Assembly: GCA_019695095.1 (NCBI GenBank)
Contig: JAIBAQ010000042.1
Span: 1-37,756, forward strand
Source of the DNA: Candidatus Hydrogenedentota bacterium
Lineage (GTDB): Bacteria; Hydrogenedentota; Hydrogenedentia; Hydrogenedentales; SLHB01
Direction: 5' to 3'
Length of the DNA: 37,756 nt
The translations under genes were made by a program, and so were the position numbers. Below the pieces are notes generated by a model. It ran no database searches and had not been told where the DNA came from. It worked only from the letters and a program-made list of their open reading frames with translations. Shown here piece by piece: positions 2,918 to 5,982 of this stretch (its first letter is position 1; each line of letters opens with the position of its first letter).

Positions 2918-4186
2918 TTACGCCCAGTAAACCACGGCTCCGTCGCAAAGCGTCGCCTTGACGAGGCCGCGTAACGTCATGCCTTTGAAGGGCGTGTTGC
3001 GGCTGCGGGAATGAAAAGTCTCAGGATCGACGACCCATTCGGCTTTCGGATCGAACACGGCAATGTCGGCGGGACCGCCTTCGCGCAAGACACCCGCATT
3101 CAGATTGAAGATTTTGGCTGGGGCTGAAGTCAGGAGCGCGATTGCCCGTTCCATGGTCAGGACTCCCGGCTCCACCAAACCCGTGATGGTCGCGGCCAGC
3201 AACGTCTCAAGACCGACGATGCCAAACGGAGCCAACTGAAACTCCACGTCCTTTTCGGTCTGCGTATGCGGCGCGTGGTCCGTGGCGATGCAGTCGATGG
3301 TCCCATCCGCCAAGCCCTCGCGAACGGCCGCCACGTCTTCCGCTTCACGCAACGGTGGATTCATCTTGGCGTTGGTGCCGAATCCGACGACCGCGTCGTC
3401 CGTCAGCATCCAGTAGTGCGGCCCGGTCTCGCACGTCACGGGAAGGCCACGCTTCTTGGCGCGCCGAATGATGTCCACGCCGCCTTTGCTGGTAACGTGC
3501 TGAATGTGAATTCTCGCCTTACTCAGTTCCGCCAACCGGATGTTGCGATCGATCCGAATCTCTTCAACGGCTTTTGGCAGGCCGGGGATGCCCAGGCGCG
3601 TTGAATTATAGCCTTCGTTCATCGCGCCGCCTTCGGCAAGGGTCTCGTCTTCGCAGTGTGCCATATACGTCAGGCCGCACATCGTCGCATACTCAAGCAC
3701 GCGCCGCATGACCCAACTGCTGGCGATATCCTTTCCATCGTCGGTAACGGCCACGGCGCCGACGGCCTTCAATTCGGCCATTTCCGTCATCTCGGCGCCT
3801 TCCATGCCCTTGGTTGCGCATGCCGCGGGCCAAACCTTGATTATCGCTGTCTCGCGCGCGCGCCGGTTGACGAATTCGACCATACCCGCGTTATCAATCA
3901 CGGGACGCGTGTTCGCCATGGTGACAACCGACGTCACGCCTCCCTTTGCCGCGGCGCGGCTGCCGGTAGCGATGGTCTCCTTGGATTCGTACCCAGGTTC
4001 GCGGAAGTGAACGTGCACATCGACCAAACCCGGGCAAACAATGCATCCCTTTGCGTCGATGGTCTCGTCACCCTTGAGGTTCTTGCCGATCTTTGTAACC
4101 TTCTTCCCCTCGACAAGGATGTCCACGGGCTCGGAAATGCCCGATGTCGGCTCTATCAGATGACCGTTAACGATGGCAAGACTCAT
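2918..4186 (-). CDS. pyrC: dihydroorotase, class I
   Basis: This 422-residue metal-dependent amidohydrolase cyclises N-carbamoyl-aspartate to dihydroorotate, step 3 of UMP synthesis. The first metal site is DVHVHFREPG (56-65). Later ligands are visible in AVTDDGKD, MAHCEDE, IHIQHVTSK and CIATDHAPHT. The length and the HFREPG form fit class I (Bacillus/Aquifex-type) enzymes that often associate with PyrB. A GTG at 4198 would add four residues, but the ATG at 4186 has a GGAG six bases upstream and starts at the conserved MSLAIVNG, so it is chosen. It is the last gene of pyrR-pyrB-pyrC, 42 nt after pyrB, and should share the operon's leader control. Confidence 0.96.
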   Translation of the reverse strand: MSLAIVNGHLIEPTSGISEPVDILVEGKKVTKIGKNLKGDETIDAKGCIVCPGLVDVHVHFREPGYESKETIATGSRAAAKGGVTSVVTMANTRPVIDNAGMVEFVNRRARETAIIKVWPAACATKGMEGAEMTEMAELKAVGAVAVTDDGKDIASSWVMRRVLEYATMCGLTYMAHCEDETLAEGGAMNEGYNSTRLGIPGLPKAVEEIRIDRNIRLAELSKARIHIQHVTSKGGVDIIRRAKKRGLPVTCETGPHYWMLTDDAVVGFGTNAKMNPPLREAEDVAAVREGLADGTIDCIATDHAPHTQTEKDVEFQLAPFGIVGLETLLAATITGLVEPGVLTMERAIALLTSAPAKIFNLNAGVLREGGPADIAVFDPKAEWVVDPETFHSRSRNTPFKGMTLRGLVKATLCDGAVVYWA

Positions 4187-4228
4187 CTTCGACTCCACTC
4201 CTGTGCTTGCGGCCTGACACTGGCTGCG

Positions 4229-5209
4229 TCAGCTCTGGCCACCGTTTATCAGCAGGTGCATGACTGCCATGCGCACCGCCACACCGTTGCTCACTTGTTC
4301 AAGGATTACGCTGCGGGGACCGTCGGCCACTTCGCTGGCAAGCTCAATATCACGGTTTATGGGACCGGGATGCATCACCAACGCGTGCTTGGGAGCCGCG
4401 CGCAACGATTCGTTGTCGATTCGGAACAGTCGAATGTACTCGCGCATGCTCGGGAAAAGGCACTTCGCTTGACGCTCCAATTGAATGCGCAGCGCGTATA
4501 CCACGTCCGCGTCGCAGATGGCCTCTCGCAAATCATGCGTCGTCTCCGCGCCCATCCGCTTGATTTCGACCGGCATCAGCGTGCTCGGCCCGCACAGCCG
4601 GACCTTTGCTCCGAGCTTGGTCAGGCCCCAGATATTGCTGCGCGCCACACGGCTGTGAGTGATGTCGCCAATGATCGCCACGCGGATACCATCCAAACTT
4701 GCCTGCGGGTCATTGCGCAATTTACGGACGTGCTCGCGCATCGTGTACGCGTCCAACAAACCCTGCGTGGGATGCTCGTGTGCGCCGTCTCCGGCATTGA
4801 TGATGTGAGACTCGTGCCGTTCGGCAAGTATGTGCGCCGCCCCGGCCATACTGTGGCGAATCACGACGACATCGCTGTGCATCGCCTCGATATTGTCCAA
4901 CGTATCGTGGAGGGTCTCCCCTTTCTTGGAACTCGACACTTGCACGTTCATGGTGAGCGTGTCGGCACTCAGGCGTTTGGCCGCCAGCTCGAACGACGTG
5001 CGTGTGCGCGTGCTCGGCTCGAAAAACCAATTCACGACGAGCCGGCCCTGCAACAGCGGCACTTTCTTTATGCCGCTCTCACGTTTCGACACCGCAACAA
5101 ATTGCGGCGCCGTGTCGAGAATCATTTCCAGTTCCCGACGCGACAAGTCCTCTAAAGCCGTCAGGTCCTTGCGCGTCCAGGTGAATCCCTCTTCCTCCGC
5201 ATGTACCAC
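4229..5209 (-). CDS. pyrB: aspartate carbamoyltransferase catalytic subunit
   Basis: PyrB condenses carbamoyl phosphate with aspartate, the committed step of pyrimidine synthesis. The 326-residue protein shows the carbamoyl-phosphate motif FEPSTRTRTSFE (63-74), the SSSKKGET loop (92-99), HPTQ (146-149) and the aspartate-domain motif HPGPINRDIE near the C-terminus. The length is typical. No pyrI regulatory-chain gene is present in the window, so control is probably transcriptional through the pyrR leader. The start is GTG at 5209, with GGAAGA about 7 nt upstream; no better in-frame start is near. It lies between pyrR (62 nt upstream) and pyrC (42 nt downstream) in one leftward operon. Confidence 0.97.
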   Translation of the reverse strand: MVHAEEEGFTWTRKDLTALEDLSRRELEMILDTAPQFVAVSKRESGIKKVPLLQGRLVVNWFFEPSTRTRTSFELAAKRLSADTLTMNVQVSSSKKGETLHDTLDNIEAMHSDVVVIRHSMAGAAHILAERHESHIINAGDGAHEHPTQGLLDAYTMREHVRKLRNDPQASLDGIRVAIIGDITHSRVARSNIWGLTKLGAKVRLCGPSTLMPVEIKRMGAETTHDLREAICDADVVYALRIQLERQAKCLFPSMREYIRLFRIDNESLRAAPKHALVMHPGPINRDIELASEVADGPRSVILEQVSNGVAVRMAVMHLLINGGQS

Positions 5210-5271: not shown

Positions 5272-5832
5272 TTACTCGCCGGACTCCGCCGCTATACGTT
5301 CCAGCAGAACAGCATCCTCACCATCGGCTTCCTTAAGCCGAACCGACACGTGGTCTTCCGGGTTCGTCGCGAGAGACCACCCCAGATAGTCCGCGCGTAT
5401 CGGCAATTCACGATGTCCGCGGTCCACCAGGCACGCCAACTGCACCCGCTTGGGCCTGCCATAATCGATAATCTCGTCCAGAGCGGCCCGCACCGTCCTG
5501 CCGGTAGACAGAACGTCATCCACCAGGACCACGGTCACCCCTTCCACATCAAAATCGAAGTGGGTGACATTTCCTGCCAGATTCGGTTTCTTGCCGCTAC
5601 GCAAGTCGTCGCGATATAGCGTGGTTGCCAGCGATCCTATGCGCGGTTTGACTCCGCTCATCTTGGAAATCTCTTCGGCCAGCCGTTCCGCCAGCGGACG
5701 GCCCCGTTTCAGAATTCCCAGAAGGACGACTTCGTCCATGGACTCATTGCCAGCCACGATTTCTTGGGCCATGCGGTGTATCGCGGCGTCTACACCCGCG
5801 GCGTCCAGCACTACGGTAGTCTCGCTAGTCAC
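5272..5832 (-). CDS. pyrR: PyrR bifunctional regulator / uracil phosphoribosyltransferase
   Basis: The 186-residue protein is a type I phosphoribosyltransferase with the PRPP loop VVLVDDVLSTGRT (101-113) and PyrR-typical blocks such as LLGILKRGRPLAERL and the basic loop TLYRDDL. In Bacillus PyrR binds pyr mRNA when UMP/UTP is high and promotes leader termination; it also has weak uracil phosphoribosyltransferase activity. It is the first gene of the operon, and the leader just upstream has a strong terminator hairpin (5868-5898), which fits that role. The start is a GTG at 5832 with only a weak AAAGAA upstream. Outside the Firmicutes some PyrR proteins have no known RNA-binding role, so RNA control here is inferred from sequence. 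Confidence 0.95.
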   Translation of the reverse strand: MTSETTVVLDAAGVDAAIHRMAQEIVAGNESMDEVVLLGILKRGRPLAERLAEEISKMSGVKPRIGSLATTLYRDDLRSGKKPNLAGNVTHFDFDVEGVTVVLVDDVLSTGRTVRAALDEIIDYGRPKRVQLACLVDRGHRELPIRADYLGWSLATNPEDHVSVRLKEADGEDAVLLERIAAESGE

Positions 5833-5867
5833 TTCTTTAACGTCGCTCCCTACGCTCGAACAGGTAG

Positions 5868-5898
5868 AAAAAATCCCCTCTCATTCACATGAGAAGGG
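5868..5898 (-). terminator. leader terminator (attenuator) upstream of pyrR
   Basis: Read on the minus strand, a 10-bp stem (CCCTTCTCAT with ATGAGAGGGG, one G-U pair) closes a GTGA loop and is followed by A then six T. This is a complete intrinsic terminator lying between the promoter at 5954-5982 and the pyrR start at 5832. Terminators in pyr leaders are the hallmark of attenuation. An ATGAG upstream (about 5925-5929) could pair with CTCAT of the 5' arm and act as antiterminator; this pairing is my inference. Confidence 0.85.
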
Positions 5899-5940
5899 TC
5901 TATAGTGATCATAGTGATACTCATTGTTATGCGCCCGCAT
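5881..5940 (-). CDS. possible pyr leader peptide, 19 codons
   Basis: An ATG at 5940-5938 opens a frame reading MRAHNNEYHYDHYRPFSCE and stopping at a TGA (5883-5881) inside the 3' arm of the leader terminator. The ATG sits only ~6 nt after the predicted transcript start, with no Shine-Dalgarno, so translation would have to be leaderless. In enterobacterial pyrBI and pyrE, a leader ORF running into the terminator couples ribosome progress to attenuation. The geometry here is similar, but the ORF is short and could be chance. Tyr/His codons are enriched because of an ATAGTGAT tandem repeat. Confidence 0.35.
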   Translation of the reverse strand: MRAHNNEYHYDHYRPFSCE

Positions 5941-5953
5941 TGCGCCGAAAAGG

Positions 5954-5982
5954 AGTGTAGCAGTCCTTCGCAGAACAGTCAA
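5954..5982 (-). promoter_or_regulatory. sigma-70 promoter of pyrRBC
   Basis: On the minus strand TTGACT (5982-5977) is separated by exactly 17 nt from TACACT (5959-5954). The predicted start is near 5946, giving a leader of about 114 nt to pyrR that contains the terminator at 5868-5898. Confidence 0.8.

Follow-up and report, generated by a model that had tools for sequence, protein, structure and literature searches.

Probable ribosome-controlled attenuation of the pyrR-pyrB-pyrC operon in Candidatus Hydrogenedentota

The pyrR-pyrB-pyrC operon of Candidatus Hydrogenedentota is probably regulated by a transcription attenuator that is controlled by a ribosome. The window, by which we mean the whole stretch of 37,756 nucleotides analyzed, is a MAG contig from this phylum and carries the operon on the minus strand in the order pyrR (positions 5272 to 5832; PRTase family, GTG start), pyrB (4229 to 5209; aspartate carbamoyltransferase), and pyrC (2918 to 4198; dihydroorotase). 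Among relatives, pyrB follows pyrR in all 33 loci that have enough downstream sequence. Upstream of pyrR, a promoter, a terminator, and a positioned start codon are conserved in sequence. Control shared by PyrR and a leader ribosome, which the first-pass annotation had considered unusual, was reportedly proposed earlier for Thermus ZO5; what is new here is a phylum-wide comparative case, with a sequence-constrained hairpin arm that occurs only before pyrR, a positioned start codon, and signs that both the RNA site for PyrR and the binding surface of the protein have been lost.

The promoter consists of a -35 hexamer, TTGACT (5977 to 5982, minus strand), and a -10 hexamer, TACACT (5954 to 5959, minus strand), which are separated by a spacer of 17 nucleotides; the -10 hexamer is preceded by TG. 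Transcription would start at about 5948 to 5946 on the minus strand, giving a leader of about 115 nucleotides up to the pyrR GTG at 5832. The intrinsic terminator hairpin, CCCTTCTCAT-GTGA-ATGAGAGGGG (5875 to 5898, minus strand), has a 10-bp stem, 3' of which come one A and then six T (T tract, 5868 to 5873, minus strand). In the window taken alone, pattern scans place both kinds of element near their chance rates, with 3 promoter-like sites in the region against 1.5 expected and 5 terminator-like sites against 3.4 expected. We accept the promoter and the terminator as real because they are conserved in relatives: promoter-like hexamers scoring at least 9 of 12 lie upstream of the attenuator in 27 of 44 cases, TTGAC-type -35 boxes precede it in many relatives, and the terminator recurs as described below. 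The first-pass annotation had already described the TTGACT-17-TACACT promoter, a leader of about 114 nucleotides, and a 10-bp terminator stem with six T, and all three hold.

We found pyrR in 61 of 68 Hydrogenedentota genomes and examined the upstream sequence at all 61 loci. An intrinsic terminator lies just upstream of the gene at 45 of these loci, representing 31 of 39 genera. Its 5' arm is conserved in sequence: CCTTCTC (5891 to 5897 in the window, minus strand) is identical at 36 of the 45 loci and in 22 of the 31 genera, and what is conserved is the exact order of C and U, not merely the pyrimidine content. The exact complement, GAGAAGG, is present in the 3' arm at 15 of the 45 loci (9 of the 31 genera). 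When the stems of related pyrR leaders are compared, the 3' arm is seen to drift, mostly by A-to-G differences that keep the pairing by wobble. Part of this asymmetry between the arms is expected from wobble rules; the T at the third position of the 5' arm, however, is kept even where its partner is G (11 genera), a pattern that suggests constraint beyond pairing. The loop is variable in both length and sequence. Across the 68 whole genomes, the hairpin and T-tract pattern gave matches in 26 genomes, all of which fall, by contig and coordinate, at the pyrR leader, and the reversed hairpin pattern gave one match; outside Hydrogenedentota, the hairpin pattern matched in 11 of 223 genomes. Being confined to pyrR leaders, this conserved arm offers a well-defined point of attack for experiments. 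In most leaders, the T tract is followed by a G, usually within TTG, ATG, or CTG (e.g., L009, L061, L067, and L070), about 8 nucleotides past the Shine-Dalgarno-like 3' arm GAGAAGG; this G may mark a second start site or favor pausing.

The terminator is absent at 16 of the 61 loci (L018, L025, L026, L054, L071, L072, L074, L075, L077 to L080, and L082 to L085), which include genera g23, g25, and g27 and four genomes of family f6 (L082 to L085). In family f6, PyrR is fused in frame to PyrB, the partner being recognized from the translation only, and the fusion is followed by pyrC, with no attenuator; the fused protein has 535 amino acids in genome G055 (L116:143-1750), and open frames of 548 to 570 amino acids are present in G052 to G054.

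The leader contains an open reading frame of 20 codons, MITIDPSHVNERGFFLPVRA (5850 to 5912, minus strand), which spans the whole terminator in frame +1 relative to pyrR. Its ATG, at 5912, lies 15 nucleotides before the conserved 5' arm, and its TAG, at 5850, lies 17 nucleotides before the pyrR GTG; with the ATG at 5924, which lies farther upstream in the same frame, it would have 24 codons. The position of this ATG is conserved. Namely, 14 of 29 genera (23 of 43 loci) have an ATG 13 to 16 nucleotides ahead of CCTTCTC, whereas over 500 shuffles the best ATG window held 8.1 genera on average and 12 at most. Starts that bear a Shine-Dalgarno sequence and cross the arm are likewise enriched, with a genus-level mean score of 4.58 against 3.20 ± 0.33 in shuffled leaders; none of 1,000 shuffles reached 4.58, and the enrichment is also seen at the locus level. 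For open reading frames in frame +1 to pyrR, 16 genera have one that crosses the stem, compared with 9.3 expected (P = 0.006). This is the frame that yields ATGA overlaps with the pyrR start, and such overlaps occur in 10 genera, compared with 5.2 expected (P = 0.009). In relatives, crossing frames commonly end at or overlap the pyrR start. Those in the other two frames are at the level of the shuffled controls, and any stem-crossing ATG frame is found in 24 genera against 20.2 expected; these frame-level enrichments are moderate because crossing frames are common by chance in GC-rich leaders. Relatives share ancestry, which the shuffles ignore; counting by genus reduces this effect of kinship, and most of the genomes are draft MAGs.

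In the nearest genera, the leader frame matches that of the window in position and phase (MDITRPSQ..., MNVRTPSH..., MTIQTPSH..., and MNLAGPSP...). Across the phylum, neither the peptide sequence nor the codon phase is conserved, the same arm being read as PS, LL, or FS; therefore, it seems to be the passage of the ribosome, rather than the peptide, that has been selected. Control by a specific peptide was rejected on the same grounds. In leaders of genus g18 (L014, L015, and L029), CCCGGAGG, a likely Shine-Dalgarno sequence, is able to base-pair with a CYTCCGGG downstream of the terminator; after read-through, this pairing could hide the leader start.

These features suggest how the attenuator would work. 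Transcription from the promoter at 5982 to 5954 would yield the leader, and a ribosome starting at AUG 5912 would occupy or enter the 5' arm of the hairpin and stop it from pairing with the 3' arm. With the hairpin blocked, RNA polymerase would read on into pyrR; if no ribosome arrived in time, the hairpin would form and transcription would end at the U tract. The same ribosome, finishing at or near the pyrR start, could also feed the translation of pyrR. Since an initiating ribosome covers roughly 13 to 15 nucleotides past its start codon, one placed on an AUG at -15 would reach just to the foot of the hairpin and could block the terminator on initiation or within a few codons. Both the blocking of the hairpin by the ribosome and its role as the way in which pyrimidine supply is read are what we infer from the conserved elements. 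Besides the moderate frame enrichments and the loci that lack a terminator, this reading has to accommodate open reading frames in g11, g15, and g18 that stop inside the stem. It also has to accommodate the window itself, where the Shine-Dalgarno sequence before AUG 5912 is weak and the frame ends short of pyrR and does not overlap it; in these respects the window leader is an average member of the family and not its clearest one.

The first-pass annotation had proposed a different set of parts for a hybrid of PyrR and a leader frame. Its reading frame, 19 codons from an ATG with a TGA in the 3' arm of the stem (5881 to 5940, minus strand), is present but is not supported as the functional frame: it lies in frame 0 to pyrR, and crossing frames of this phase occur in 7 genera compared with 9.2 in shuffled leaders. 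The tandem repeat of ATAGTGAT is indeed found in the window leader, at 5902 to 5909 and 5911 to 5918, but in none of the other leaders listed. An ATGAG, a conceivable antiterminator, can pair with CTCAT, yet pairing of the upstream leader with the 5' arm is no better than in shuffled leaders (mean z of +0.13 over 45 loci, with 4 of the 45 in the best tenth). Thus, the general idea survives in the attenuator, the positioned start, the Shine-Dalgarno sequences, and the enriched frame +1, while the particular frame, repeat, and ATGAG do not.

What would sense pyrimidines is a separate question, for which two candidates are nearly even. Given the attenuator, we put at about an even chance that PyrR bound to UMP denies ribosomes the leader, as in the Thermus proposal, and at somewhat below even that slow transcription of the pyrimidine-rich arm at low UTP or CTP lets the ribosome catch up, as in pyrBI. 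In the first, which as a complete explanation we consider somewhat less likely than not, PyrR-UMP would bind the leader and block ribosome entry at its start so that the terminator forms. In its favor, the attenuator is followed first by pyrR at 45 loci, the hairpin pattern occurs only before pyrR in the 68 genomes, and the operon order resembles that of Thermus. Among solved structures, the window PyrR matches PyrR proteins, the closest natural one being the Thermus "pyr mRNA-binding attenuation protein" (1ufr), and R141 of PyrR is invariant.

Several results point away from PyrR as the regulator. A covariance-model search for the PyrR element RF00515, in which B. subtilis, L. lactis, and Thermus composti were positive controls, gave no match in any of the 68 Hydrogenedentota genomes or in the window, with the stricter filters of the large search being such that very weak sites could be missed. 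The RNA-binding residues of B. subtilis PyrR are reportedly those listed by Savacool and Switzer in 2002. Where the B. subtilis protein has T18, H22, R27, K40, H140, R146, and K152, most genera carry a different residue at the aligned position, with K40 changed to L in 38 of 39 genera and R146 to Q in 35 of 39; the window PyrR itself keeps H140, R141, and R146. In PyrR, RNA binding is assigned to a basic concave surface (PMC7430163). The same substitutions are carried by PyrR in genera without the attenuator. Finally, a search for upp-family uracil phosphoribosyltransferases gave no hit in the 68 genomes, whereas 12 of 14 controls were positive; PyrR may therefore be kept as the uracil phosphoribosyltransferase, mainly as a salvage enzyme. 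The absence of RF00515, the replaced residues, and the lack of upp together weaken the case for PyrR as regulator. Its binding to the leader is partly argued against by the first two of these, leaving PyrR a candidate regulator only, although it could recognize a different RNA. Upstream of the leader start, we saw no common RNA element. Among genus representatives, neither k-mers nor folding energy exceeded the shuffled level (mean structure z of -0.18 ± 0.19), and a common upstream protein-binding motif was rejected on this basis. In genus g40 (L053, L062, L064, and L068), the leaders share a conserved hairpin, GGTGTACGCATANGGCTGCACC, where the RNA is predicted to begin; it was seen in no other genus.

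The second candidate takes these same results as support. Here PyrR would be only a uracil phosphoribosyltransferase, RNA polymerase would slow in the CCUUCUC arm and the U tract at low UTP or CTP, and a ribosome close behind would block the hairpin. The missing RF00515, the replaced residues, the lack of upp, which would keep PyrR as an enzyme, and the lack of any common upstream motif or fold that a protein might recognize all agree with it, as does a leader that is U-poor until the pyrimidine-rich arm. Coupling with short leader frames, moreover, requires pausing by RNA polymerase (PMC4824070). Against it, the arm keeps its exact succession of C and U and not its pyrimidine content alone, and the E. 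coli leader frame is longer (135 bp; PMC4824070) than one whose AUG stands about 15 nucleotides from the hairpin; as a complete explanation we find it rather doubtful. A bolder form of the idea, which we consider unlikely, would extend it to the whole phylum, with PyrR a salvage enzyme only, polymerase slowing in CCUUCUC as the sensor, and an initiating ribosome half a footprint upstream as the antiterminator. If true, attenuation that senses UTP or CTP would have evolved outside the Proteobacteria, beside a PyrR that no longer controls RNA.

It is improbable that the hairpin itself is a binding site for PyrR or another factor, with translation not needed. The excess of CCTTCTC (22 of 31 genera) over its exact partner (9 of 31) is what one would expect of such a site, but wobble rules account for part of the asymmetry, the loop varies, and the positioned starts, the Shine-Dalgarno excess, and the frame enrichment would be left unexplained. 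In a B. subtilis-type mechanism, PyrR would bind an anti-antiterminator, and the antiterminator would form when some upstream segment, ATGAG for instance, paired with the 5' arm. This is very improbable: although a pyrR gene, an attenuator, and an ATGAG able to pair are present in the window, the upstream pairing is at the shuffled level, RF00515 is absent, and there is no additional upstream structure. Equally improbable is an unregulated terminator or chance hairpin, such as a stem for RNA processing or the close of a preceding transcription unit; the near-chance rate of terminator-like sites in the window would allow it, but conservation across the phylum, only at pyrR and downstream of a promoter, refutes chance.

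Ribosome-controlled attenuation before pyrR can be set beside known pyrimidine control systems. The B. subtilis pyr attenuators (RF00515) also have an operon encoding PyrR and an intrinsic terminator before pyrR; unlike them, the leaders studied here have no RF00515 match, no element of the ARUCCAGAGAGGYU type (the consensus given in PMC7430163), and no antiterminator pairing. The B. subtilis pyrG leader (RF02371) matched the hairpin region weakly though over its full length (20.5 bits, E value of 1.8), falling far short of the 65-bit gathering score, and gave no match in the whole-genome search; we attribute the weak match to chance, with the terminator as its source. A PyrG leader acting by reiterative transcription was rejected for its weak Rfam score and the lack of a conserved 5' run of G.

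In E. coli pyrBI, as here, a leader frame (pyrL) runs through an intrinsic terminator, and the proximity of the ribosome suppresses termination (PMC5021804, PMC4824070). Unlike in E. coli, the frame here has about 20 codons and starts about 15 nucleotides before the hairpin, pyrR adjoins it, and there is no U-rich upstream pause cluster. Of the features typical of pyrBI and pyrE, we thus find a leader frame that spans the terminator and, toward pausing, only the pyrimidine-rich 5' arm.

Thermus offers another close likeness. For the pyrR-pyrB-bbc-pyrC attenuator of Thermus ZO5, Van de Casteele et al. reportedly proposed in 1997 (J. Bacteriol.) control by PyrR and a translating ribosome, with no antiterminator. 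In that operon, too, pyrR reportedly comes first and is accompanied by pyrB and pyrC, the leader is about 115 nucleotides long, there is a terminator but no antiterminator, and a translating ribosome is proposed to prevent the hairpin. Of the features of that type, we find a terminator before pyrR (45 of 61 loci) and, statistically, a leader frame running into or through it. Unlike Thermus, where the T. composti genome matches RF00515, Hydrogenedentota has no match in 68 genomes; unlike in Thermus ZO5, a hairpin arm is conserved in sequence and most residues of the PyrR binding surface are replaced. A conserved attenuator beside a PyrR that has lost the known RNA site and most of the known binding surface, in genomes where no upp was found, sharpens the question of whether PyrR always regulates. 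Overall, the leaders provide comparative support, across about 31 genera, for a type of pyrimidine control proposed decades ago for Thermus and, to our knowledge, not broadly compared since.
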